Part shown: piece by piece, positions 7,785 to 55,679 of the stretch | Layout of the letters: each line of letters begins with the position of its first letter | How positions within the stretch are numbered: the stretch's first letter is position 1 | Assembly: GCF_028882255.1 (NCBI RefSeq) | Contig: NZ_JARBUY010000001.1 | Span: forward strand, 898,344-962,343 | DNA: 64,000 nt | Reading direction: 5' to 3' | From: Maribacter polysaccharolyticus | GTDB lineage: Bacteria > Bacteroidota > Bacteroidia > Flavobacteriales > Flavobacteriaceae | The notes under the pieces: generated by a model | The model's input: only the letters and a program-made list of their open reading frames with translations | Databases searched by the model: none | Told to the model about the DNA's origin: nothing | Program-made: the position numbers and the translations under genes

Positions 7785-10325
7785 TTATTTTTTTACCAAA
7801 ACTATGGTTTGTCCTGCTTGGGTCGCCACATCATACAGGTACGTATCCTTTACCTCAAACCCCTTTAAATGGGCTTCTTCCGAAATGATCGGCGCTTTGA
7901 TCTTTGGAACTTGATAAAATGGGTTTACATTGTTTCCTTCGGCACTTTCCAATATCTTTCCATCGTCGAAATCAAGTTCAGTGTAGGAACGGATCCTACA
8001 AATGCCTCCTAAATTCGATTTTATCACCGCTTTAACTACTTCTCCGTCTTTCCATTCCAGGGATTCCAATTCGAATCCCCCACGTGCGCGCAATCCGGTA
8101 ACCTTCCCATCTTGCCATACATCGGGTAAGGCAGGGATCAAATGAATGGCCCCATCATGACTTTGCAGCAACATTTCCGTTAAACCGGAAGTAAATCCAA
8201 AATTACCATCAATTTGGAACGGAGGGTGGGCATCCAGCATGTTGGCGTAGGTACCTCCTCCTTTTGAGCCCGGCCTGCCCACCAATTTAATCTGGTCGGT
8301 CATCATTTTATAGGCATGGTTGCCATCCAACAAACGCGCCCATTGGTTGATCTTCCAGTTCATACTCCAACCCGTTGAAGGGTCGCCGCGGTAAATCAAT
8401 ACGTTTCTTGTGGCTTCTGCCAATTCCGGTGTACGGAAAGGCGAAAATTGATTGGAGGGGTGCATGGCGTATAAATGGGAAATATGACGGTGTTTGTCAT
8501 CCGGACTGTCCCAGTCATTGATCCATTCCTGAATTTGGGCATGCCGACCAATTTGGGTAGGGGCCAATTGAGGAAGGGTGGCTTCGATTTTTCGTATGAG
8601 TTTCGCATCGGTGTCCAATACTTTTGCCGCTGCTAACGTTTTCGTCAACATATCAAAAATCAATTGATTGTCCATGGTGGTTGCATAGGCAATGTTCACC
8701 ATGTTGGGCATATGGGCCGGCCGATTTTCAGGAGATGTCGATGGCGTAAAAACCAACCACCCATGATCCGGTTCCGGCGTTAAAAAGCTTAGGCAAAACT
8801 CAGCAGATCCTTTTAAGGCCGGATATACCTCTTGCAAATAGTCCATATCGCCATTATACAGGTACTTTTCCCACAAATGCTGGCTCAGCCACAACCCACC
8901 ACTTGGCCACATGCCCCAAGTGGCACCGTCTACCGGACCGCAAATACGCCATAAATCGGTATTGTGATGACATACCCAACCTTCGGCCCCGTACATGACT
9001 TTTGCGGTTTCCTGACCGGCTACTGATAGTTCCTTAACCATTTCAATCAATGGCTCATGCATCTCGGTTAAATTAGTTGCCTCCGCAGGCCAATAATTCA
9101 TTTCGGTATTTATATTTACGGTGTAGGCACTTTTCCAAGGTGGGAAAAGTTCGTTTGCCCATATCCCTTGCAGGTTGGCTGCCTGCCCACCGGGCCGGGA
9201 AGAACAAATCAACAGGTAACGGCCATATTGAAAATAAAGGGCGGCCAAAGCGGGGTCGTTGGCCTGGCTAAACCGTTGAATGCGCACATCGGTTGGATGG
9301 TCGATTTCATCGGTTTTGCCCAAATCGAGACTGACCCGGTTAAAATAGCTTTGAAAATAAGCCGAATGCCCTGCCTTTAACCGCTGGTAGTCTTTTCGTT
9401 CGGCATTGGCCATAAAGGCTATAGCGCGCTTATGCGCATTGCCACTGACATCCCGATAGTTGACAAAATTGGTCGCTATGGAAAGGTACATGATAACACT
9501 GTTCGCCCCTTCAACGCTTAAACTGTTTTCCGAAGCCGTCAAAGTCCCCCCCTCGGGGACGATTTTCAATCTGGATTCGAACCTCACCTTGCCTTCAATG
9601 GGGTGCGCATCCTCGGGGGTCCGTTTACTTTTCCGATCGGAGCCCTTCCCGGTCATCACCAAAACATCATCATTTTCGGTACCTACCTCAACCACTGCGG
9701 GTTCAGGGCGATCCATCGTAGCTTTGAAACTGATTTTACCTTTTCCATTGGCCGTTAATTTCATGACAATTACATCATCGGGAAAAGAAGTGAAAATTTC
9801 ACGTCGATATTCTACACCATCAACTGTGTATTTTGTGGTATTGATGGCATTTTCAATATCCAACTCACGGTAATAGTTTGAGTACTTCCCATGATTTGCA
9901 AAATCCAACCGTAAATTCCCAACGGTTTCATAGGGCATCCCATGCGATGTTTTCGAGATGATCTTGGCATTGGCCAAGTCATGAGCCTCTTTGTAATTTC
10001 CGTCAAACAGCAGTTGGCGTATTTCGGTCAAAATTCCCTTGGCTTCCGGATTGTCATTTCGATGGGGGCCTCCTGCCCAAAGTGTACTTTCATTCAATTG
10101 AATATTTTCATTTACAGGATTACCGAAAACCATGGCACCCAAACGGCCGTTGCCCAAGGGTAAAGCCTCATTCCAATTGGCAGCGGGAGCATCGTACCAG
10201 AGTTTCAAATCAGAGGCCTGATTTGGTGTGGTTTGCGCATTGCCCACACGTGAAACCAATACACATAGGCATAGCGAAAGCAAGGTAAAACCGAATGGGT
10301 AAATTGTTTTGTTCATCATATCCAC
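7785..10325 (-). CDS. GH95 alpha-L-fucosidase (or alpha-L-galactosidase)
   Basis: Full-length GH95 protein of 846 residues with a Sec signal (about residues 1-31). The N-terminal beta-domain starts [19 protein letters not shown], a hallmark of the family. In the (alpha/alpha)6 barrel I see [10 protein letters not shown] (Asn404, Asn406), STSPEN (Glu533, probable general acid) and FQIDGNFG (Asp706). By order and spacing these match the catalytic set known for the inverting GH95 1,2-alpha-L-fucosidase AfcA. The predicted reaction is hydrolysis of terminal alpha-L-fucose, or L-galactose in some members. It lies between a heparinase-like lyase (5 bp upstream) and GH43 (6 bp downstream), so it is part of the left operon. 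Confidence 0.93.
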
Positions 10326-10330
10326 TACTT

Positions 10331-12817
10331 TTATTTTGTTGTTTCGGTTCGTACAATTTTATCATTTACAGCCTCATCCAAGTGTACGGTAACATCCCCC
10401 TCCTTTATATTACCGAGGGTTATGTGATGTTGTCTGCCATCTTTTAGATAAACCACCAATTCGTTGGCGTTTTTAGCTTCTATCTTGGAAATGGCACTTT
10501 CCCCTTTATAAGGTTCCAATACATGTAAAAACTCGGTTTCCTTTGCATTCACACGCACGCCATAAGTCCTTCTATCCGGGTTATTTCTCATTGTCCGTTG
10601 TTTTCCCCCGTTTGGATAATCGGCAATCAGCGCACTCGCTTTTTTGGGCCATAGCGTGAATACATCCAACTTGTTCCCTTCTTCATCAAATTCAACTACC
10701 GCACCTTTATTCAGGTTATACCATTGGGCATTGGCAAAGTATTTATAAGGCGAATCTTTCTTATGGCACAAGGTATCCAATAACCTTCCTTTCTTTTTTG
10801 CCCCTTTAATGGTTTGAAACCCAACAGGGTGAACCAACCAATCGTAGTTATGCTTTTTGTTCGAAGTGATGTAATCCGCTATGACTACATAATCATCCGT
10901 GACAATTGATAGTCGCCTTTGCAGAATGGGCTCAAAATCCCCATCATAATCGGTATCGTCCCAGGGTGGAAATTTTTCAGCATTCCACGTAGGGATCTTT
11001 CGCCATCGCGCCTTTGTTTCCACTACGGTAGCCTGCATCATTTTTCCTTTATAAAACAAGGTTTGCTTTGAAGGCACGGCTTCTTGTTGCAACCCATCCA
11101 CGATGACCATGTTATGGGTGGCCGATGTCTGTACACATTCTTTATAGCCAGGATTACCGTACCCAAACCAAACCATTTCAGCACCAAAATATTTATGCCC
11201 ATTACGGTCGAGCCCAATCATATTGGTTCTATCGAAATGCCCATGCCAACCACCATGGGTTCCGTATTTAAAATACGCTTGAATTTGTTCTTCCGGAGTA
11301 TTGTTTTTTGCATGAGATCTTAAGGCGACCAATCCCACATTCGGGGCAAATGCCGAAGCTGTTCTTGGATCCCCGACTTCAGGTAACTCTGGAACCCCAT
11401 ACATCAAAGACACCCATGAATCCCTTTTGGTTTTGCTTAAAACCCAAGCTATATCGTTTAACTTGTAGGCCCTATAGACCAATTCATAAAACGGATCAGG
11501 GGTTTTTAAATTGGAATCATTGGTGGCGACCACATTGGCATTTTCATCCATAAACGGAATGTATGGCGTAACCATATCCTCCAATCCGATCGTATTCTTC
11601 GTTACAGGTCCCCAGTTATCGAACTTCATACCTGTAAAACCTTCCTTAACGTTTTCAAAATCCTTACTTTTGAATTTTACGGGAAAACGTCTGTGGTATA
11701 AATCCCATCCATAATTTTGGAATGCCTGGGCTACCAAACTATAACGTTGCACCACCAAATAGCAATAATTTGCAGTTCCTTCAAACCACCAACCATCATC
11801 CATAACCCCTTTTCCTATTTGGTCTGCCATTCCTCCATCGGCCTCGGTCAAATATTCCACCTCGGCTACATCTTGCAAAAACAATGCGGATAGGATCGCA
11901 CCTGCATTGGCACTTGCTTGGTGATTCATAATGCCTAAAGGATCCATATGCTTTCGGTTCAATTCCAAATAATACCGAAAGGTTGCTTCTATATTCTCCC
12001 TGTCCTCAGCCGAGAATTCCGGTTCATTAAAGAGTAAATCACAGGCTGCCGCTAAGTGCAGAAAGAAATTACCTTCATGAACTTGTACCCCATAGGTGGC
12101 TGCACCTATTGAAAGGTAGCCTTCTTCCTTATCGCAAACCTCCTTGATAAACCGTATTGCTTTTTCTTTATAGCTCTGCTTTCCTGTTAATTTCCATGCC
12201 AGACACAAACGAAATACTTCTTCACTATCATTGGGCCTGTAATTAAAACTAGACCAGACTTTTACAGGTCTGGGTTTGGTGACAATTTTTCTTTCAGGGA
12301 CTTTATAGGCATCCAGTTCCTTAAGCATGGCATCTAAATTGGCTTTTGCCCAAGGGTAGTTTTTCACTTTCTCCTTGGTTTCGTTGATAATATCATTGGT
12401 AACCAATAAAAAAGGATGCTCTTTTACCCTAACCGAGATAAATTCAAGCGATTCTACCCGGTTTCCCAATTCATTTTCAATGGTGATAAAACAGGATTCT
12501 TTTCCGCCTTTTGGCATTCTATCGCTAATGATAACCTGAAGTTTCCCGGAATAACTTTCCTGTGGCTTGAGGGTAACCATGCTATCCGATAGCATATATT
12601 GACATGCCAAGGTTCTTGGGTCGTTTATTTTTAAATGAAAAATTTCCACTACTTGATTCTCGTTTTTTATTTCGAAACCATAGTGAATGGTATCATTGGC
12701 CTTGGCCGATTTAGATTGGATGGTATACGTAACCTGTGCTATAGGGGACTCTTTTGCAATACCCCAAAAGGTGGTCAACCCAATAAAAATCAGTAGATAT
12801 TTTTTTATTTGAATCAT
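10331..12817 (-). CDS. Heparinase II/III-like polysaccharide lyase
   Basis: Secreted protein of 828 residues with an N-terminal hydrophobic signal. Residues about 25-130 look like an immunoglobulin-like beta-domain. Residues 150-430 are helical and form an (alpha/alpha) toroid with NHQASANAG (His299) and [11 protein letters not shown] (Tyr). A beta-sandwich follows with [11 protein letters not shown] (His527) and [12 protein letters not shown]. This layout, toroid plus heparinase II/III C-terminal domain, is that of uronic-acid-cleaving lyases such as alginate, heparin and ulvan lyases. I do not recognise the PL family number. It differs from the four paralogues in the right operon. If active, it would cut next to a uronic acid by beta-elimination. 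Its start is 32 bp after the SGNH gene's stop. Confidence 0.82.
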
Positions 12818-12849: not shown

Positions 12850-13575
12850 TTACTTTTGAAAATGCTGTTGTATTAATGCGGAAAGCACGGCAGGATAATT
12901 TTGCCCTGTAACGGTACCTTTGTTTTTGGTTCCGGCCCCATGGGTAATCGAATCACCGAAACAGACCAACTTTTGACCCTTTTTCAATAGGGCGTTCATT
13001 TTCAAATAATCAAAAACCGTTTCAGCTATAAATCGATATCCTAGCGCCGTAGGATGAACCCCATCCTTGGCACCACTATTCCGCTCATTCCTAAAAAACA
13101 GATCCACGTTATGTTCGGGCAGTCCCATATCACTGAAGATTTGGAAAAAATCAATATACCCTAAACCGTCTTTTCGGGCCAGTTTCTTGATAATTTGTCG
13201 CGTGGAATCCATTTTTACATTCGGTATTTCCCGATAAGCGTTTCTGTCGTGTCTTTGAAATAAATACACCGAATCAACGGGAGGCGGGGTCATTAAAACC
13301 ACCTCTACCCCCTTAACCTTTATTCTTTGAATGATTTCCTCCAAATTGTGCGCATAGTTTCTATAGGAAATCATTTTTTTGGAATTCAACATATCGTTGG
13401 TTCCTACCATGACAATAACCAGATCGGGATTATGTCGTAGCACTTCGGCATCCAATCGTTCCAATAGATTTTTGGTATTGTTTCCACCGATACCCGCATT
13501 GAATACCTGTGCATTGGTGGTTTTAGGTCCAAGCAAGGTCAGTATCAAAAGCAAGCAATTTAGGCCTTGTTTCAT
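12850..13575 (-). CDS. Circularly permuted SGNH/GDSL hydrolase
   Basis: Secreted protein of 241 residues; Sec signal residues 1-22 (TTNAQ). All SGNH blocks are present but in a rotated order. The mature protein begins directly with the Gly block (NAGIGGNNT, Gly30/31), then Asn block MVGTND (Asn60), then Asp-His block KDGVHPTALGY (Asp171, His174), and only then the Ser block VCFGDSITHG with Ser209 near the C-terminus. In ordinary SGNH proteins the GDS block comes first. The C-terminal segment (residues 200-241) reads like the missing N-terminal helix that would normally lead into VFNAGIGG. The start is secure: ATG overlaps the upstream stop as ATGA. Probable role: deacetylation of the glycan. 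Confidence 0.85.
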   Translation of the reverse strand: MKQGLNCLLLILTLLGPKTTNAQVFNAGIGGNNTKNLLERLDAEVLRHNPDLVIVMVGTNDMLNSKKMISYRNYAHNLEEIIQRIKVKGVEVVLMTPPPVDSVYLFQRHDRNAYREIPNVKMDSTRQIIKKLARKDGLGYIDFFQIFSDMGLPEHNVDLFFRNERNSGAKDGVHPTALGYRFIAETVFDYLKMNALLKKGQKLVCFGDSITHGAGTKNKGTVTGQNYPAVLSALIQQHFQK

Positions 13576-15269
13576 TTTTCGGTATTTTCCGGTGCCTTAT
13601 ATTCCAAAATCTGACCGTCTTTCCTAAGTTGCCTGTCCAAGGCCTCAAAAGGAACATCGTACAGGCTAATATCCGCATCAAGTGCCATTGCCGCGAGAGT
13701 CCCTGCACTTTGTCCCAATATCATGAATACGGGCTCCATTCTAATGGAACCAAAGGCAATATGTGAACTGGAAACCGCTGCCGGGACCAAGAGGTTTTTA
13801 CACTCTTCCTTTTTGGGCATAATGGTGCCCAGGTGAATCTGATACGGCCCTGGTGGCTCTACCCCCAAATCACCTTCGTTCTGTACAAATCCCCCTTTGG
13901 TGATGTAGCGTTGCGTATTGTGGGAGTCCATGGTATATGACCCCATACCAATAGGCTTATCGACCTTGTTCTTTCCCAATATCTCATTCTCCGTCATGAC
14001 GAATTCCCCTAGCATCCGCCTTGCTTCACGAACATAAATTTGATAAGGCCAGTGGCCGTTATCAACGAACTCATCCTTGGCAAGTCCCCACTTTTTAAAA
14101 TCCTCACGCAGTTCTTTAGGCACGCTTTCATCATTACCCCAAAACCAAAGGAGACCTTTATGGTACTTGGTATGTTCCTCCAGGATTAGTTTTCTCTTTT
14201 CATAAGATGCTTCCGGGTATTCATAGTTCATCCCAATATTATCGGAACTAAACGGCCCCACATTATTGACGTCCCGCTTTTTATTGGGTATTTTTCCGCC
14301 ACCGAACATGGCATGTCTTCCTCCCCTGAAAACACGTCTTAATAACTCATATTGGGCAGGGTCGTAGTTTTCGGGCTTCTCGAAAGGGACTACATTACCT
14401 TCTGCATTGGTCGTACATAATCTATAGTTATATGCCTGAACCCGATGATCGCCTTCTCCATTTTCACCAGGGTCTTCCGTTGAGATGCGGGGAAGCACCC
14501 CACTGGTAGAATCCCCGGGAATCATATATGGACTTATGTTCAATTGCTGAAAATTATGGCTGTGGTGATACTTTCCTTTCTGCACACCGTTCCACTCTTC
14601 GCCATAAACGCTATTCGCTTCCCTACCCACGTGATAGCCAACACCGGCCGCAGCCATTAAGTCGCCTTCGTAAGTGGCATCTACAAATATTTTTGCCTTA
14701 TATGTGGTACCTTCCAACAGGGTAATCGAAGTGATTTTCCCATTGGAAGTCTTAACCCCATTTTCCCTATCCAACCATTTGTCGCGTAATACTTTTATAT
14801 CGTGTTCTTTTACAAATTTTTCAAAGATTTGTTCCGCAACATGGGGTTCAAAAGTCCACATGGTTTTATATTCATCATCAATGGCGGTGGTACCTTGACC
14901 GACATTACCATATTCATCTTTGGGCTGCCATCTCCAAGCCTTATCATTTTGATAATGTTTGTATACCTCTTGATAGAATTCCTTTGAAATGCCGCCAATA
15001 ACGCTTTTATTCCCTAAATCGGTGAATCCCAATCCACTGGCCGACAATCCTCCGATATGCTTATCAGGGCAGACGATCAAGACCGATTTGTCCATTCGCA
15101 CCAACTGGACGGCCGTCGAGATGGCCGCGGAAGTCCCCCCGTAAATCACGACGTCGGCATCGATATTATCCTGCTTTTCCGATGATGCACAAGCCGTCAG
15201 CAAAACCCCTACTATCAAAGTTAAAATATAACTTCGTCGTACTTTTGATCGGATTGTTCCTCTGTTCAT
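13572..15269 (-). CDS. FAD-dependent oxidoreductase, lipoprotein
   Basis: Protein of 565 residues with a lipoprotein signal (VLLTAC, Cys27). A dinucleotide-binding fold starts at residue 38: DVVIYGGTSAAISTA, followed by the acidic/hydrophobic strand SVLIVCP and HIGGLSASGLGF, typical of the FAD_oxidored family (Pfam PF12831). A C-terminal FAD-contact segment, GSIRMEPVFMILGQSAG, is also visible. Such proteins occur in several PULs, but their substrates are mostly unknown; a sugar or sugar-acid oxidation is possible. The stop overlaps the start of the permuted SGNH gene by four bases (ATGA), so the two are translationally coupled. The lipid anchor implies that it acts outside the cytoplasm, which is unusual for a flavin enzyme. 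Confidence 0.85.
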   Translation of the reverse strand: MNRGTIRSKVRRSYILTLIVGVLLTACASSEKQDNIDADVVIYGGTSAAISTAVQLVRMDKSVLIVCPDKHIGGLSASGLGFTDLGNKSVIGGISKEFYQEVYKHYQNDKAWRWQPKDEYGNVGQGTTAIDDEYKTMWTFEPHVAEQIFEKFVKEHDIKVLRDKWLDRENGVKTSNGKITSITLLEGTTYKAKIFVDATYEGDLMAAAGVGYHVGREANSVYGEEWNGVQKGKYHHSHNFQQLNISPYMIPGDSTSGVLPRISTEDPGENGEGDHRVQAYNYRLCTTNAEGNVVPFEKPENYDPAQYELLRRVFRGGRHAMFGGGKIPNKKRDVNNVGPFSSDNIGMNYEYPEASYEKRKLILEEHTKYHKGLLWFWGNDESVPKELREDFKKWGLAKDEFVDNGHWPYQIYVREARRMLGEFVMTENEILGKNKVDKPIGMGSYTMDSHNTQRYITKGGFVQNEGDLGVEPPGPYQIHLGTIMPKKEECKNLLVPAAVSSSHIAFGSIRMEPVFMILGQSAGTLAAMALDADISLYDVPFEALDRQLRKDGQILEYKAPENTEK

Positions 15270-15290: not shown

Positions 15291-17243
15291 TTAATTTACC
15301 GGTGTAAAAATGGTCGTTATACTCCCTGAACGTAAAGGTGCCACAAAATCGACTCCAATGCGGTATGCGGTCTTACCACTCCTTAAATGTTTTACAGGGA
15401 CTTTTTCCGGTAAGATGCCCACAACTCCACCTTCAGCCATTATTTCAACCTTTACTTGCTGATTTTCAGTAGTAATAAGTATCGTATGGTCATCAAGGAC
15501 TTCATAAGCATCCGAAACCATAACCGCCGTGCCGAAGGTCATTGATTCCGATGCTTTGAAACTGTCCGTGATAGTGATGGTTCCTTTCCCCTTTTTGTTG
15601 TTGACCATGGTTCGCTCCAACTTCTGCAACCCCTCTACTTCATAGGCCGGCTTAATGTCGATGACCACCTTATCACGATCTATACTGAATTCCGTTTCGG
15701 TAATCTTACCTGAAAATTCATTGCCATTGGATTGCAGTGACCCGGCCACTCTCGGTACCGGATGCCCCCAAGAACTACGGGCCTTATTCTCTGGCGAAAA
15801 TGCCCCGGCCGTGTACGACGGAGCCCCGATATCCCCTGTTATCAAATCGTCTTTGTATACCACAATATAGGTCCCTACATCACTGTGGTTATGGTTTTCG
15901 GCATTGTGTCCGGCCTTAACGGCAATGGAAAAGGGTTCTTGTTGTTTCCCCCTCGAAATCACCATGCCAAAATCATCGAAATAGGAATGATCGGGTAATT
16001 CCGTTTTTCCTTCAATAGGATTTTCCTCAGGGGTAAAAGCAGTCGGATGTGCCCAGGCGACCAACTGTTCCGCAGCTTCTTCCATTCTAAACTCGGATGG
16101 CTTTATGGCCCCATAATACATGGCGGAAAGCGCATTGGCAAAATTGCTCCCTTTTTTTGATATCGTTGATACCCCGTCTGAAAAGGGGGCGCACCTTTCG
16201 TTCTGAATTTCGAACTTTTCCGGAAAATTCCCAACGTTCTTTAGTTTTTCCGAATTATCGGCTGCGAATAAATTGATTTTACCCCCGGTATAATCATATA
16301 AAATCTGAGCCAAATACAGGTAATGTCCAAAACCGTATCCCCAATAACCCAATCCTTCAGAGCAATACCCATCCTCCCCGAAGCCACTGAGATAATAGTT
16401 CATGCTATTCAAGGCACTACCCACGGCTGCAAGTCGTTCTTCCTCCTTATCGGAAATTGCGATTGTAGCGAATATGGTGCCACTTGTACAAACGGAATTC
16501 CAGTTACTGGTACTTTTGATCCACTTATTGTTTTCATCCAAAATGGAGCAACTTTTTAGGTAAGTATCCACAATACGCCACTGAAGCTGCCCTGCAATTT
16601 CCTTTCTAAAGGCATCACTGAGTTTATCCCTTAACAATACCTCGGCCATTGCCAGTACCATTCCGAATTTTCTGGCCCCTAGATCAATGGAGACACGCCT
16701 ACCTTCAAGCACACCGTTGTCTTTATCGTCATGGTTCGGGTGCAACCATGACTTCATTTCCATGATCGCTTGGATATATACCTTGATCTGCGGTAAAAAA
16801 CGGCCTTTGTTTTCCAAACACTCCCCCAAAATAAAATGTTCGAGCCTATCCATGGTACGGTAATACCTTGGTTTGTATATGCCTCGGTTTCCTTCAAGAT
16901 TGGCCCTTCGATAAATTTCATCGGTAATGGGCACTTCCGGTTGTTTGTCCAACACTTCAAGAGCGGATTTCAAATACGCTTGGCCCGATGAACTGTTCGC
17001 GATTTCTTCCCAATATCCCCTATTGGAAATGGCCGGTGCAGGTTGAAAGGTTTGTTTTGGCAGTACGGCTTTTAACATTTTTATTTGCTTGGCCGAAGGG
17101 TAGATCTTATCGCCATCGACATATTTGAGATATACCCCAATATCCAAGGTATCCCCGTTTTTGCTTTGGTTACCAAAAGCGATGGTAAAACACAGCAAAA
17201 ACCCGAAACCGATTAAAGACATTATCTTCTTCCCTATAGCCAT
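15291..17243 (-). CDS. Heparinase II/III-like polysaccharide lyase
   Basis: Protein of 650 residues from the ATG at 17243, which gives a normal Sec signal (MAIGKKIMSLIGFGFLLCFT..FG). An in-frame ATG at 17315 would add 24 residues and spoil the signal, so I rejected it. The helical toroid holds STSNWNSVCTSG and EGLGYWGYGFGHYLYL; the C-terminal beta-domain holds AENHNHSDVGTYIV and DIGAPSYTAG. These match the heparinase II type arrangement (Asn/His region, catalytic Tyr, HNHxD metal/active-site motif). Predicted substrate: a uronic-acid-containing sulfated polysaccharide, cleaved by beta-elimination. It is the first gene of the left minus-strand operon, next to the divergent control region. Confidence 0.82.
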   Translation of the reverse strand: MAIGKKIMSLIGFGFLLCFTIAFGNQSKNGDTLDIGVYLKYVDGDKIYPSAKQIKMLKAVLPKQTFQPAPAISNRGYWEEIANSSSGQAYLKSALEVLDKQPEVPITDEIYRRANLEGNRGIYKPRYYRTMDRLEHFILGECLENKGRFLPQIKVYIQAIMEMKSWLHPNHDDKDNGVLEGRRVSIDLGARKFGMVLAMAEVLLRDKLSDAFRKEIAGQLQWRIVDTYLKSCSILDENNKWIKSTSNWNSVCTSGTIFATIAISDKEEERLAAVGSALNSMNYYLSGFGEDGYCSEGLGYWGYGFGHYLYLAQILYDYTGGKINLFAADNSEKLKNVGNFPEKFEIQNERCAPFSDGVSTISKKGSNFANALSAMYYGAIKPSEFRMEEAAEQLVAWAHPTAFTPEENPIEGKTELPDHSYFDDFGMVISRGKQQEPFSIAVKAGHNAENHNHSDVGTYIVVYKDDLITGDIGAPSYTAGAFSPENKARSSWGHPVPRVAGSLQSNGNEFSGKITETEFSIDRDKVVIDIKPAYEVEGLQKLERTMVNNKKGKGTITITDSFKASESMTFGTAVMVSDAYEVLDDHTILITTENQQVKVEIMAEGGVVGILPEKVPVKHLRSGKTAYRIGVDFVAPLRSGSITTIFTPVN

Positions 17244-21059
<3,816 letters not shown>

Positions 21060-41794: not shown

Positions 41795-44548
41795 TTATTC
41801 TATAGATCGATAAGGCCCCACACCAAACTGCTTTTCTTCCTTATCACTTTTAAGCGTAACCGGAACTTCGTTGTGTAGGTATAATCCCCCCTCTTTCTGT
41901 TCTAAAACCACATTCCCTTTTTCAGAAGCCATAAGGGTAAGTCCGTTTGCTTCCAAGGTAGTTCCATTGCCCATAAAAAGGATGAAATCCCCATTTTTTT
42001 GTTTGCCGATCAAGGCATAGGTTGCATCGGTCAACGTTCCTTTATATTTAGCCGTTTGGTTTTTCGTTGATGAGAAAACCAAATCTTCCCTTCCGGATTT
42101 ATGCTTTATGTGCAATCCCACGAAATCACTACTGCCATTTTCATCATCAAAGGACTTGATACTCGCGATACTTTTCCCTTCACTGGCCGTAAACGGCTCG
42201 TATACCGATGCAAAAGGATGCTCCCAAGCTTCCCCATGCTGCCTTGCCGCCAAGGTCAAATACGGCGCCTTATCCACTTCGTAAGGCAAGCCATGATCCC
42301 CTTTAAAAGCTTTGTTCGGTGGCGATTTTATGGAGAACACCTCCCGTCCCTCGGTGCCTTTCATCCATAGGTTCATAAATACGTCATCTTTTCCGTCGGG
42401 CATATCGATCTTCCATTCTGCCTGATAATCGCTCTGGGTACGCACCGATTTTTTATCCCACATATAATCAAAGGCATATAAATGTCCGCCTGCAAAGCCC
42501 ATTTCCTCACTGGGCGTAAGTTTTAGCGGGTTTCCATTCGTATCACTTATTTGCATACTTTGACCTAGATTATGATAAAAATAATCGTGGAATTTATCGC
42601 CTTTTCGTTGTTTTTTGGAACGGAATATATCAACATAATACCCGGTGGTCTCCCCCGTTTTCACGATACTGACCAGTCTGCTTTGATCACTTTGGGTCTC
42701 GGGTTCCAAAAAGTAAACATCGGAATACGTAATGGCTTTATAAAAGCCTTGTTTTTGCTCTGATTTCGGGTATTGTCCCATTAGATCGAAGGCATGGTAG
42801 CTCAACATCTCGGTGTAGGAAGAAACCCCATCGACCATGACGGTATTATGTGCAGGAAACTGGGAGTAATACTCTAGATAAATGGGTTGAAGATAGCCCG
42901 CTCCCTTACCCGGATCGGCACCTTGTATAAAACCTTTTCCATACAGTTCCATATTGATACCATTGGCATGCATATGGTTTCCGAGTGAAGCGTTCAGGGA
43001 CACCATCATCCCATCCTTGCCCGTACCCATGCGCTGTACATGCCAACTTACATTCGGTGCATAAAAAGTTTGGGTGATATAATCCTGTAGGTCACCCTTT
43101 TTATATTTGGGATCCAATTCCAAAGGTTTGCTGGCAAAAAATGAAGCAATAGTTGCCCTTACCTTTCTTCCTTTTCCCGAACCTTCCGCATTTTGGGCAA
43201 ATAACCGATACATGCCGGTAAATTCTTCTTCGAGCTCCTTGTCATTGTTTTTTTGTGCAATACGGATCATATCACTCATCGCTTCGACATAAAGTGGCCC
43301 ATAATTGGAATCCCCAAATGCAACGGTCTGTCCGTTGGGAAATAAATATTGTGGAAGCATTTTAACCGCTTTGGGCATTACCGGGGTATAGGGTAAAAGA
43401 TTATGATCGAACGTGTTGTCGAAATCCCTGATAAAATTGGTCAGGTCTTTGGTAACCCCTTGTGAGTAGCCCGGACATTCTGCCCATACCCCATTGGTTT
43501 CATCGTAACCATAATCGATGAACTTGGTCAAGGACCATTGTCTTGCCGAAGTAACGTTCAAAATATAATCGATATAGTACTCCCGACCTTTTCCGTCCTC
43601 ATACTCATCGTTATCACGCAGTACCATGGCTGCTTTTAAAATGATCTTTGCTTGATGCAGGTTCCAATTGTTTTGGGGCACACCGTTTTTAATGATCTGA
43701 TCGGTCCATCTTTTGATCGTGGTATCATACATATCGATTTTATCGGGATGGTTTGCTTCAATGTATGGATGCAAAAAATCATAAAGTTCAGCAATTTCCC
43801 GAAGGACGTTCTCATGTATTACCTGGAAATTCGTAAACCCAACCAGGGTTTGGATATGTCCGTTCAGTAGATCGATCGGTTCACTGCGGTACGACATCCC
43901 TTCCATATACGTATGGAAGATATCATATGAAAATTCAGCGAAACGCCTATCGCCCTCCACCCAATGGACAAATGCCGCATCTCTGGCCAATCCTATGATT
44001 TCCTCATTTATCGAATAGATAATACGCCCTGTTTTGGAAATTTCGACCCATTCAAAAGGGTTGCCTTCCTTACTCCTATTCGGCAGATATAATCCACGGG
44101 GATCATCCATATAAGGCAACACCTCTTCAAGTTTGGGTTTGCCATAAGGGGTCGTATAATCCCTGGAACCCACGAAGCGCACCGTAGGCACGGGTGCTTC
44201 CCCATCTGCATGGGAATAGTTTATTCCATTGACATAAATGTTGGTCGCCTTGGTCTTCCAATACATCTGTAAACGGGATACCATCCATTCCGGGTCATCT
44301 ACATGACGCCCCACGTGTGCATCGATACGATTGTGGATACCGGTCAAGACCTCTTGGGCCCAGTCTTCTTTCTTAATGGTCTTTTGAAGCCCCTTTTTAC
44401 CCTCTTGGGTAATGTACAATCGAGGATACCCTTCCTCCTGATTTTCAGGAAGCGGAATAAGGTTATCCGATTGTGCTTTGGTATAAAAACCCATGAAACA
44501 AAACAGTACCACAACTAATCCATTTATATACTTGATATTCCCTTGCAT
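41795..44548 (-). CDS. Heparinase II/III-like lyase, paralogue 1
   Basis: Exported protein of 917 residues (Sec signal about 1-25, YTKAQ). It is one of four related proteins in the right operon. Shared marks: DPEWMVSRLQMYWK and GEAPVPTVRF near the N-terminus, NNWNLHQAK in the helical toroid, NHMHANGINMELYGKG (His525, His527) and FPAHNTVMVDG in the beta-sandwich, and YHNLGQSMQ. The toroid plus heparinase II/III fold is that of uronate-specific lyases. All expected histidines are present here, as in paralogue 4 (60813-63620), so this copy should be active. No PL family number is assigned. It is the last gene of the right operon, facing the 3' end of the HTCS gene. Confidence 0.82.
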   Translation of the reverse strand: MQGNIKYINGLVVVLFCFMGFYTKAQSDNLIPLPENQEEGYPRLYITQEGKKGLQKTIKKEDWAQEVLTGIHNRIDAHVGRHVDDPEWMVSRLQMYWKTKATNIYVNGINYSHADGEAPVPTVRFVGSRDYTTPYGKPKLEEVLPYMDDPRGLYLPNRSKEGNPFEWVEISKTGRIIYSINEEIIGLARDAAFVHWVEGDRRFAEFSYDIFHTYMEGMSYRSEPIDLLNGHIQTLVGFTNFQVIHENVLREIAELYDFLHPYIEANHPDKIDMYDTTIKRWTDQIIKNGVPQNNWNLHQAKIILKAAMVLRDNDEYEDGKGREYYIDYILNVTSARQWSLTKFIDYGYDETNGVWAECPGYSQGVTKDLTNFIRDFDNTFDHNLLPYTPVMPKAVKMLPQYLFPNGQTVAFGDSNYGPLYVEAMSDMIRIAQKNNDKELEEEFTGMYRLFAQNAEGSGKGRKVRATIASFFASKPLELDPKYKKGDLQDYITQTFYAPNVSWHVQRMGTGKDGMMVSLNASLGNHMHANGINMELYGKGFIQGADPGKGAGYLQPIYLEYYSQFPAHNTVMVDGVSSYTEMLSYHAFDLMGQYPKSEQKQGFYKAITYSDVYFLEPETQSDQSRLVSIVKTGETTGYYVDIFRSKKQRKGDKFHDYFYHNLGQSMQISDTNGNPLKLTPSEEMGFAGGHLYAFDYMWDKKSVRTQSDYQAEWKIDMPDGKDDVFMNLWMKGTEGREVFSIKSPPNKAFKGDHGLPYEVDKAPYLTLAARQHGEAWEHPFASVYEPFTASEGKSIASIKSFDDENGSSDFVGLHIKHKSGREDLVFSSTKNQTAKYKGTLTDATYALIGKQKNGDFILFMGNGTTLEANGLTLMASEKGNVVLEQKEGGLYLHNEVPVTLKSDKEEKQFGVGPYRSIE

Positions 44549-44555
44549 TCCGTTA

Positions 44556-45509
44556 CTATTTATGTCTTAATACTTCTTTTATCGCCTCTTGCACCAAAGG
44601 TTCCATAACCGCATAACCCGTTAAATTAGGATGCACCGTATCCCTACCATAGTCCTCTTTCAATCCTTTTTCTTCATTGACCATATGGGAATAATAATCT
44701 AAATACACCATATCGTTCTTCTTGGCATAGGATTCAATCAGTGCATTCAGCCTACTGATCTTTTCCTTGGGTTCTATGGATGGACTCCAAGAATAACTAC
44801 TCGCGGGAAGCACTGAAGCCAAAACCACTTTTATATTATTCGCTTTGGCCAATTCCGCCATTGAAAAAATATTGTCTGCAATCTCGGGAACGGTAATAGG
44901 ACCTCTATTACCTGCAATATCATTGGTACCTGCGTGAATAACGACAACTTCCGGATTCAAATTGACCACATCGGGTTTAAACCTCACTAACATTTGTGAC
45001 GAAGTTTGCCCACTGATTCCACGACCGATATAATTGTTTTCAGTAAAAAATTCGCCATGGAACATCACCCATTTTTCGGTGATGGAGTTTCCCATAAAAA
45101 CCACACGTTTTTCTTTTTCACCAAGTGCTTTCAGTTCTTCATTGGCTTTTTTATACCGTTTTAAATTTGCCCAATCCTCATTGGGCATTAATTGGATTTT
45201 CACTACTGAAACCCCGGTTTCCGAGGCTTTCTTAGGTAATAAAACGGTTAATTTCCCATCAATCAATTTTATGTTTATTTTTTGGTCCGGTTCAGAAAGT
45301 AACCTCGCCTCCCTGGGCTTGATAGCGCTATCGATAACCAATTTACCATCTTCGGGCCAATTGGAAACATGTGCCAATAAAAAACCATCTTCCCCCTCAG
45401 TATACATACCCCATTCTGGTTTTTCATAAGGACTTCCTTGAGAAAACCCGACACCGATATTTGAGACAATGGCAATTGCAATAATGATCAGTTTCTTGTA
45501 AACATGCAT
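44556..45509 (-). CDS. SGNH esterase with N-terminal GH29-type beta-sandwich domain
   Basis: Exported 317-residue protein (Sec signal 1-24). Residues about 26-107 are a small beta-domain that matches, almost position by position, the C-terminal domain of the neighbouring GH29 protein: both begin SPxEKPxWGxYT, continue AHVxxWPExGxL and end VSVVKIxL. Residues 120-317 form an SGNH hydrolase in normal order: FMGNSITE (Ser142), GISGQTSSQ, HAGTNDI and DTVHPNLTGY. It probably removes an acyl group such as acetyl. It starts 75 bp after the GH29 stop, with a hairpin in between. The domain looks transferred from the GH29 gene by partial duplication. Confidence 0.87.
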   Translation of the reverse strand: MHVYKKLIIIAIAIVSNIGVGFSQGSPYEKPEWGMYTEGEDGFLLAHVSNWPEDGKLVIDSAIKPREARLLSEPDQKINIKLIDGKLTVLLPKKASETGVSVVKIQLMPNEDWANLKRYKKANEELKALGEKEKRVVFMGNSITEKWVMFHGEFFTENNYIGRGISGQTSSQMLVRFKPDVVNLNPEVVVIHAGTNDIAGNRGPITVPEIADNIFSMAELAKANNIKVVLASVLPASSYSWSPSIEPKEKISRLNALIESYAKKNDMVYLDYYSHMVNEEKGLKEDYGRDTVHPNLTGYAVMEPLVQEAIKEVLRHK

Positions 45510-53009: not shown

Positions 53010-55679
53010 CTATTTGATTTCCAAGTTATATCCTGCCGGATATTCTTTAGCCCCTTTTTTGTTGATTTGAATGATCACCGGCTTGTCCGATGAATAATAG
53101 TACTTACCGTCTTCGAATCGCAATGCTGCTGAAACCGCTTCATTGACCGCCTCGATCTTATACTTGCCGTTTTGAAGCAATTTTCCCTTGCCTAAGTATA
53201 AATAGTCAAACTTTCCGTTTTTTTTCGAAGTCACCCCTAAAGTCCCTTTGAACTTTAAATTTTTTGCTGGTTTATACACCTTGTTGCCATCAATCGAATT
53301 ACAGATGACCTGAGTGCTGTGTGTCGACGTGACCTTTAAACTTACCATATCCCCAAAATCTCCGACTTTCGTAATCTTTTCAATTGATTTTTCACCTGTC
53401 GCATACGGCTCAAATACCGAAACAAACGGATGTTTTTTTCCATTAATCCCATTTTGGCGTACGATTAAGGTTGGTGTTGTTTCCGGACTTCTATTGATTT
53501 GCTTTGGTGTAATATCTTCCCGTAAGGTTGTTGGCGGAGCATCTACCACATACAATTCCCGGTTATCCTGGCCCATCATCCATAGGTTTACGTGCAATGC
53601 GGGCGATACCGAATTGATATCCCAAGTGGCATTAAAATCCCTGTCATACTCCACTTTACGTTGGTTTTCAAAGAAGCTGTAATGCTTATTGTGGGCCGTT
53701 CCCAAGTCATTTACCGCCATTAAAGACAACTCATGGTCGGAGGCATCTTTAAGGGTTACCGCATTCCCCAGATTATGGTGTAAATAATCGTTGTCATCTT
53801 GATCGGACCTGAAGATATCGACATAATAACCAGAGGTTTCCGAAGTGCGTACCATCGCTACCACGCGACGTTTTTCTTCGGCAGACACATCGGCAAAAGA
53901 CACCAGTTCCGAGGTTACTTCGGTATTGTAAAAGCCGTTATCCGCCGTTTTTGGATCCATGGCATTTACCGTGATTTCCCCTGATTTATATCCTGGAATT
54001 ATGGTATTGGACCCCGTAATCCCCCTGTGATATCCCGCATCCGGAGACCAGTACGATTCGTATGCCGATGCATCCGGAGCCAAAGCCCACCCTTTACCGT
54101 AGAATTGAAACGCCAATCCGTTTTCCGCTAAATGAGACTTTTGGCGTCCGCCATAAAGTGTGAACATCAGGCCGTTTTCTTCATCGTTTCCATTCCTTAA
54201 GATCATATGTCTATGAAATTTTGAATAGGCCGATCTATGATACGGTAACTCACTGCCCGATTCCGGTAAGGTTTGATTCAAGATAATATCCCGCCATTGG
54301 GATCCATTCCGATCGTATTGACCGTTCTCCAAATTCTTCTTGATGACCGTTGCCATGGTCTTGGCGGTTTTCGTATCGCCTGTCCATGTCGAATAGGTCA
54401 ATAGCGCTTCAAAAGCCGACATGTTGAATGCCCCACCGCGCATATCGCCAAAAACGACTAAATTTCCACGGGCATCCAACCAACCCAAATTTGCCAAAGC
54501 CGCTTTTTCGATAATTGGATTTCCTGCCAGCGTGTTCATGCCGGACTTATATAATAGTAAGCCCATGTCCAAAACCGTCGGGATCATGCCCGAAGCGTAC
54601 CCTGGGGATTCTGGCCATAAGCCTGTTTCGGTATTGTAATTGGCCATGATCTCGGGTAAACCAGCATAATGATCTCCCGATTTTTCTGTATAAAACGGAA
54701 TGTAGTACTCCCGCCCTTTACCATCTTCATAAAATTCATTGGACTCCAATACCAACATACTGCCTATGATATTCTTATACCGGTTTACATTCCAGTTTCC
54801 TTTCTTACCCCCGCGGACCAAACCGATTTCTATAAAACGTTTGAATACCTCACTGGCCACATCGACCGTTTTTTTGTTGATTTCCTTAAGATGTTCGTGC
54901 GGATGGGCGTTTAAGTAATCATATAGAAAATCATAGGTGGCCGCCATGGGAATCTGACGATCGTCGTGGATCACTTCATAATCATAGTAACCCATAATTC
55001 CCCCAGGTTCATAGCCTCCCTGTCCGCCAGTTGATTCTTCGGGATCTAAGGGCGGATTCATATAATAGGTTCCCAATATCCAAGACCAAAAAATATCGGC
55101 CGAAAACTTGGCGTATTCTTCTTCTTGGGTGATGAAATATGCAAATGCGGATTTTTCCGCCAGTTTTAAAATTTCCATATTGTTGGCCCGGATCATATGA
55201 CCAGTTTCCTTATACGGGATTTTTACCGGAGTCTTATCGGCACTTGACCGACTGATCCCTAACATGTCGCCAGTTTCGTTGTACGGGATCCTATCTTCCA
55301 GGGGCACATTCACATAATCGTTCCATTTACGCATACCCGGCAGACGCACCGTGGGTACAGGGGCATTGCCTTCACCATAATTCCAATCCTGGCCTTTGAT
55401 ATAACATTGGGTATAGCGCTCGCCGTCTTTCCAATACATGGCCAATCGTGAGACAATCCATTCCGGGTCGGTAACATGTAGGTCTACATAGGGGTTTATT
55501 TCCTCCAAAAGCATGTGCCATGAGGCTTTGGCCCATGGTTCCGTTTCGATTTTGGCCAAAACCTCCTCCCGATCGCCATCGGCCACCAACAATCGTGGAT
55601 GGTCTGATGCTTTTTGTGCCTGTATAGCGATGGCGACGATCAAACTAAAGAACAAGGTTATGGGTCTTATGGCTGTCAT
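53010..55679 (-). CDS. Heparinase II/III-like protein, paralogue 3 (active-site variant)
   Basis: Exported 889-residue protein (Sec signal about 1-21, AIQAQ). It shares the N-terminal DPEWIVSRLAMYWK and APVPTVRLPG motifs and general fold with its three paralogues. However, three conserved sites differ: NWNLHQA is NWNVNRY, NHxHxNG is SHLAENG (His516 kept, second His replaced by Ala518), and PAHNTV is TGSNTI. The open reading frame is intact and no stop or frameshift is seen, so this is not a pseudogene. It may be a lyase with a rearranged active site, a glycan-binding protein or a different enzyme. It lies between paralogue 2 and a sulfatase. Confidence 0.8.
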   Translation of the reverse strand: MTAIRPITLFFSLIVAIAIQAQKASDHPRLLVADGDREEVLAKIETEPWAKASWHMLLEEINPYVDLHVTDPEWIVSRLAMYWKDGERYTQCYIKGQDWNYGEGNAPVPTVRLPGMRKWNDYVNVPLEDRIPYNETGDMLGISRSSADKTPVKIPYKETGHMIRANNMEILKLAEKSAFAYFITQEEEYAKFSADIFWSWILGTYYMNPPLDPEESTGGQGGYEPGGIMGYYDYEVIHDDRQIPMAATYDFLYDYLNAHPHEHLKEINKKTVDVASEVFKRFIEIGLVRGGKKGNWNVNRYKNIIGSMLVLESNEFYEDGKGREYYIPFYTEKSGDHYAGLPEIMANYNTETGLWPESPGYASGMIPTVLDMGLLLYKSGMNTLAGNPIIEKAALANLGWLDARGNLVVFGDMRGGAFNMSAFEALLTYSTWTGDTKTAKTMATVIKKNLENGQYDRNGSQWRDIILNQTLPESGSELPYHRSAYSKFHRHMILRNGNDEENGLMFTLYGGRQKSHLAENGLAFQFYGKGWALAPDASAYESYWSPDAGYHRGITGSNTIIPGYKSGEITVNAMDPKTADNGFYNTEVTSELVSFADVSAEEKRRVVAMVRTSETSGYYVDIFRSDQDDNDYLHHNLGNAVTLKDASDHELSLMAVNDLGTAHNKHYSFFENQRKVEYDRDFNATWDINSVSPALHVNLWMMGQDNRELYVVDAPPTTLREDITPKQINRSPETTPTLIVRQNGINGKKHPFVSVFEPYATGEKSIEKITKVGDFGDMVSLKVTSTHSTQVICNSIDGNKVYKPAKNLKFKGTLGVTSKKNGKFDYLYLGKGKLLQNGKYKIEAVNEAVSAALRFEDGKYYYSSDKPVIIQINKKGAKEYPAGYNLEIK

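Follow-up and report, generated by a model that had tools for sequence, protein, structure and literature searches.

The question raised by this locus is whether an SGNH domain whose catalytic blocks run Gly, Asn, Asp-His, Ser along the chain is a genuine rotation or the remains of a damaged gene. The window (the whole stretch of 64,000 nucleotides that was analysed, from the marine, polysaccharide-degrading bacterium Maribacter polysaccharolyticus) carries such a domain, and its open reading frame, strand, coordinates and block order are as the first-pass annotation gave them:

12850-13575, minus strand: circularly permuted (G-N-H-S) SGNH hydrolase, 241 aa, probably exported (open reading frame list, Pfam and HMM)
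13510-13575, minus strand: putative signal peptide, residues 1-22 (by eye; helix 2-14 at low confidence in the AlphaFold2 model)
13480-13500, minus strand: Gly block (block II), N26-A-G-I-G-G31-N32, adjoining the signal peptide; G31 in 22 of 23 rows of alignment A2
13393-13404, minus strand: Asn block (block III), G58-T-N60-D61; N60 in 23 of 23 A2 rows
13054-13065, minus strand: Asp-His block (block V), D171-G-V-H174; D171 and H174 in 23 of 23 A2 rows
12937-12963, minus strand: Ser block (block I), C205-F-G-D-S209-I-T-H-G213, near the C-terminus; G207, D208 and S209 in 23 of 23 A2 rows

Judged by eye, residues 1-22 are signal-peptide-like, as had been claimed, and the ATGA start overlap described earlier is present, with the SGNH ATG sharing 4 bases (13572-13575) with the end of the upstream gene. 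The same 4-base overlap with the same neighbour occurs at three further loci (L006, L058 and L059).

Block order and rotation of the domain

The four blocks that define the SGNH superfamily, with the catalytic Ser, Gly, Asn and His and the Asp partner, are all found in the window protein, which reads G-N-H-S along the chain instead of the normal S-G-N-H. Normal hydrolases of the Lipase_GDSL_2 kind (PF13472; AlAXEase 7ddy, Axe2 3w7v, BDI_0976 3p94 and TesA) have the same four blocks, with DxxH, GxND and GDSI, but carry the Ser block N-terminally, whereas here it lies at the C-terminal end.

Because domain models match only from near profile position 30, a G-N-H-S gene could pass for a fragment. 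The native window protein matched Pfam Lipase_GDSL_2 (PF13472) in two stretches (101.7 bits), the best of which covered profile positions 31-177. So late a start is the one feature that speaks for an artefact, whether a normal SGNH gene that was cut short and has GDSI near its end by chance, an assembly join or a frameshift. When the C-terminal part was put first, a single stretch covered positions 1-177/178 with 114.4 bits. The true score was reached in none of 500 shuffles of the moved 40-residue tail, which argues against such an artefact. Other 40-residue blocks moved to the front all scored lower than the true tail, the nearest lying within 1.1 bits of it and overlapping it over most of its length.

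An HMM was then built from 20 normal-order SGNH domains (22 were collected; L073 and L076 were dropped). All 31 native permuted proteins showed a two-match rotated pattern, in which the first match started at profile position 21-33 and ended at 190-196, and a C-terminal match ran from position 1 or 2 to 12-30. De-rotation yielded a single full match and a higher total score in 31 of 31 (mean +10.2 bits, range 5.0-15.2). These 31 proteins were selected by a motif pattern demanding most block residues, so that residue conservation among them is partly by construction. When the 20 normal proteins were rotated alike, the best-domain score fell for every one of them, a control that is biased because the same proteins trained the HMM. 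Two alignments had their rows picked by search hit. Gly31, Asn60, Asp171, His174 and Ser209 were invariant in A1 (15 rows); in A2 (23 rows, picked without regard to motif) Asn60, Asp171, His174 and Ser209 were invariant and Gly31 was kept in 22 rows, L048 having Asn there and so being without the block-II Gly.

The closest relative is found in Maribacter luteus (96% identity). Comparison of the window gene with this orthologue gave dN 0.020 and dS 0.195, which indicates purifying selection; residues 198-241 alone gave dN 0.030 and dS 0.199 (8 base changes). Selection on the gene tells against an artefact, as do the 31 other proteins that share its block order, which come from different genomes and contigs, M. 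luteus included, and we regard the chance of an artefact as negligible. The earlier statement that the gene is neither frameshifted nor truncated thus stands, homologues of the same order having been found (32 distinct permuted proteins in all). De-rotation tests with their controls, same-order homologues, purifying selection and a confident model together support the claim of a clean rotation: judged from sequence, the window protein is a complete SGNH domain, rotated.

AlphaFold2, run with a 15-row alignment, predicted the window protein with a pLDDT of 89.1 (five models, 78.4-89.1) and a pTM of 0.85. The Ser-block region (residues 201-210) had a pLDDT of 94, with residues 202-207 modelled as a strand and 209-212 as a helix; residues 211-230 were weakly predicted (pLDDT 65-74). 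A phage-contig relative (L047, 6-row alignment) reached a pLDDT of 83.8 and a pTM of 0.86. In the permuted protein the normal ends, ahead of the Ser strand and behind the last helix, would be joined, and the chain would instead be opened between the first helix and the Gly strand. It would pass through the Gly strand, the Asn strand, the Asp-His loop and the last helix before reaching the Ser strand, which places Ser209 close to the end of the chain. By analogy with normal SGNH hydrolases, Ser209 would be the nucleophile and His174-Asp171 the base relay, and the oxyanion hole would be formed by the Ser209 NH, Gly31 and Asn60.

With the Ser segment at the very end of the chain and residues 211-230 modelled at low confidence, the protein would also suit an obligate dimer in which Ser209 completes the active site of the partner chain. 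Such a swap is still compatible with the two observations that weigh against it, i.e., prediction of a single chain at pTM 0.85 and occurrence of the domain in longer proteins (following a beta-helix domain, in proteins of phage contigs and ahead of a T9SS tail), and we consider it very unlikely.

Top solved structures by sequence and fold included acetylxylan esterases (7ddy; Axe2) and the GDSL-like lipase 3p94. Among the best 50 of 1805 PDB and best 50 of 1180 BFVD Foldseek matches, SGNH structures were matched mostly over 160-190 columns with a TM (query) of at most 0.56; a few of the BFVD matches listed spanned 200-258 columns, but with an rmsd of 5-15. The whole permuted topology was not found among these best matches. 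For the predicted model, such partial coverage is what is expected of a sequential aligner given a permutant, and is no positive proof of a closed fold.

Spread and origin of the permuted order

Of the 32 distinct G-N-H-S proteins, 29 belong to Bacteroidota genomes; the other 3 lie on viral contigs that carry phage-type genes. A pattern-based scan of a species-genome collection gave 80 candidate stretches, of which 14 were confirmed as loci; these are 42-96% identical and all have the same order. Further surveys were made of sampled genomes, which overlap between surveys and in which 7-11 candidates were scored per genome, so that members may be missed. At the level of the phylum, 4 of 395 genomes had a near-full-length match, and 11 further matches at E ≤ 1e-20 were each in normal order. 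The family-level survey gave matches at E ≤ 1e-35 in 12 of 397 genomes, at 14 places, all permuted, and the class-level survey in 4 of 395 at the same threshold, two of them already counted in other surveys; another class gave 1 of 244. The protein had been called unusual, which holds in that the family is thinly spread, but not in the sense of a lone oddity, as relatives exist.

Normal order prevails in the window's own genome, where 9 of the 10 Lipase_GDSL_2 matches, all those besides the window gene, have it. The two other SGNH domains in the window (about 775-1278 and 44607-45095, both on the minus strand) keep the normal order, as reported at first pass. A 655-aa protein at 235-2202 combines a normal-order SGNH domain with a weak N-terminal prolyl-oligopeptidase match below cut-off and is perhaps a double esterase.

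Most permuted members are short exported proteins, and some (e.g., L014, L022 and L072) have, by eye, lipoprotein-like starts. In four distinct members (L013, L015, L018 and L038) the permuted domain forms the C-terminus of a beta-helix-like protein, where the Beta_helix (PF13229) match rests on L013, which the other three resemble by sequence; these fusions are perhaps lyase-esterases. In L046 an extra region and a T9SS sorting tail come after the permuted domain.

Five viral-contig scans yielded 16 distinct contigs, three with the permuted order:

L047, 3013-3708: permuted SGNH domain; endolysin, DNA polymerase exonuclease subunit and Erf-like genes near
L048, 4347-5645: permuted SGNH domain as the C-terminal part of a longer protein; tape-measure gene near
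L087, 3248-4651: permuted SGNH domain as the C-terminal part of a longer protein; baseplate, tail-fibre and endolysin genes near

The remaining viral contigs had normal order wherever it was readable, L089 being ambiguous. The phage-contig relatives had PHROG 14008 (unknown), 6102 (lipase) and 8460 (tail fibre) among their best PHROG matches. With the window protein as query, plasmids gave 22 records, none covering 80% of the query, and named phages gave 92, two of which covered at least 80% (Gordonia phage ScarletRaider and a phage named FlyingTortilla); the ScarletRaider protein was rejected as a permuted relative, its order being normal. The L047 protein gave 17 records in named phages, one covering at least 80% (Vibrio phage D526).

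In a first tree (31 permuted and 22 normal proteins) a single branch set the permuted proteins apart from the normal ones, with weak support (48/78; 50% of 200 bootstrap trees). When L087 was added and the normal L005, L049, L073 and L076 were left out, the resulting second tree needed two changes, with one change in only 2% of bootstrap trees; a one-clade tree was not rejected in this set (p-AU 0.159). Long branches meet in these trees, and a single origin of the permutation is possible. No tandem S-G-N-H-S intermediate was noticed among the proteins read. From the same order in Bacteroidota relatives and a few phage-like contigs, the permuted group looks like a real, hitherto undescribed branch of a familiar enzyme family.

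Gene neighbourhood and probable function

Three genes on the minus strand flank the SGNH gene or lie close to it:

13572-15269, minus strand: FAD-dependent oxidoreductase (PF12831, 349 bits), upstream, with the 4-base overlap
10331-12817, minus strand: heparinase II/III-like (PF07940) protein, probable polysaccharide lyase (26.7 bits, cut-off 24)
7785-10325, minus strand: glycoside hydrolase family 95

The heparinase-like gene is the next one downstream of the SGNH gene, after a gap of 32 bases. Glycosidases in the window comprise GH95, three GH29-type fucosidases, a GH141-like beta-helix protein, two GH2, two GH30-type, GH97, GH43 and GH3, and there are also four sulfatases, a SusC-like/SusD pair and a hybrid two-component regulator. 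From this content of glycosidase, sulfatase, lyase-like and SusC-like/SusD genes, the PUL context therefore suggests a sulfated, fucose-rich algal polysaccharide as target. Three large proteins in the window, at 15291-17315 (674 aa), 41795-44548 (917 aa) and 53010-55679 (889 aa), had no Pfam match at E ≤ 0.001.

We compared neighbours at 27 loci, which cover all 29 Bacteroidota genes except L071 and L072, whose flanks were short. The flanks used were about 6-10 kb, or the first 30 kb for the window, and three loci come from one genome; neighbour clusters were named from one or two Pfam-tested representatives each. The FAD oxidoreductase, in either of two clusters, was the most frequent neighbour: 20 of 27 loci have it, and in 10 it lies directly upstream (at -1 to +16 bases, without the stop codon); it was not seen in the other 7, some of which had flanks of just 6 kb. 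A 3-keto-disaccharide-hydrolase cluster was found in 5 of the 27 loci, and GMC oxidoreductase and SASA esterase clusters, with CstA, in 5 others. Examples with a PF12831 neighbour are L009, L010, L055, L057, L059, L060 and L064-L067, and some loci add gluconate-dehydrogenase subunit 3, 3-keto-disaccharide hydrolase, GMC oxidoreductase, CstA and SASA esterase clusters. Relatives of the 15291-17315 protein recur in 9 of 27 loci, the window included.

Our combined findings point, with a probability of roughly 85%, to a naturally circularly permuted SGNH enzyme that is secreted into the periplasm and acts as a carbohydrate O-acyl esterase, probably on O-acetyl groups. The kept catalytic residues suggest the esterase activity, and substrate and acyl group are guesses from gene context. 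More tentatively, the enzyme might strip acyl groups from oligosaccharides of the sulfated, fucose-rich algal polysaccharide, and in doing so might clear hydroxyls for the adjoining FAD oxidoreductase and the lyases. Deacylation followed by oxidation of the freed hydroxyl is the mechanism that we consider most likely for the SGNH/FAD oxidoreductase pairing. Against the acetylxylan esterase AxeA1 model (NF042968) the window protein scored 40.8 bits, below the curated cut-off of 700.

Relation to known permutants

AlgX, AlgJ, WssI and PatB1 are likewise natural circular permutants of the SGNH core, as far as the passages available describe them, but they start with the His block (H-S-G-N type; PMC9487903, PMC4148444, PMC5697884 and PMC10302187), a different cut from the G-N-H-S of the window protein. 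The printed orders are H-S-G-Y for AlgJ/AlgX and H-S-G-D for WssI, and the permuted proteins named in PMC5697884 are AlgX, AlgJ and PatB1. The comparison with AlgX/AlgJ made at first pass is therefore apt in that both are SGNH permutants, yet it is an analogy and not the same thing, because the two are permuted at another cut.

Permuted SGNH proteins in the passages covered are acetyltransferases or homologues of these, a point for reading the window protein as an O-acetyltransferase like AlgX, AlgJ, WssI and PatB1 instead of a hydrolase, with the permuted fold itself correct. The window protein lacks the His-first order of the AlgX/AlgJ/PatB type, and where AlgX/AlgJ have, in the same passages, Tyr for the block-III Asn and DxH, it has N60 and D171xxH174, kept in 23 of 23 A2 rows. 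No AlgX- or DHHW-type family was among the 8 Pfam families matched at E ≤ 1, and the setting, with glycosidases, sulfatases and lyase-like genes, is one of degradation. An acetyltransferase is thus unlikely, and we retain the esterase.

A G-N-H-S SGNH permutant was not found described in the open-access titles, abstract openings and passages covered, subscription journals lying mostly outside this scope. In the parts seen, PMC5408684 and PMC2848206 apply "circularly permuted" to something other than an SGNH domain, PMC3779223 does not have SGNH among the permuted superfamilies counted there, and PMC12419801 mentions an SGNH-family lipase as a neighbour.

A broader reading, which we hold to be possible but rather doubtful, is that of a permuted (G-N-H-S) SGNH glycan deacylase family common to marine Bacteroidota PULs and phage tail modules. 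Its PUL members would be paired with the PF12831 FAD oxidoreductase, and the 3-keto-disaccharide-hydrolase family gene nearby in 5 of 27 loci would hint at oxidative (3-keto) glycan cleavage that needs prior deacylation; the term "3-keto-glycoside" was not found in the open-access literature covered.

SGNH hydrolases have been studied intensively; the permutants found in the printed passages covered share one cut, with the His block first, and G-N-H-S adds a second natural cut point. This second cut, with the hydrolase residues kept, offers a direct way to test how an SGNH active site depends on where the termini lie. That an FAD oxidoreductase gene so often lies nearby suggests that the breakdown of algal glycans may include a step not yet characterised.
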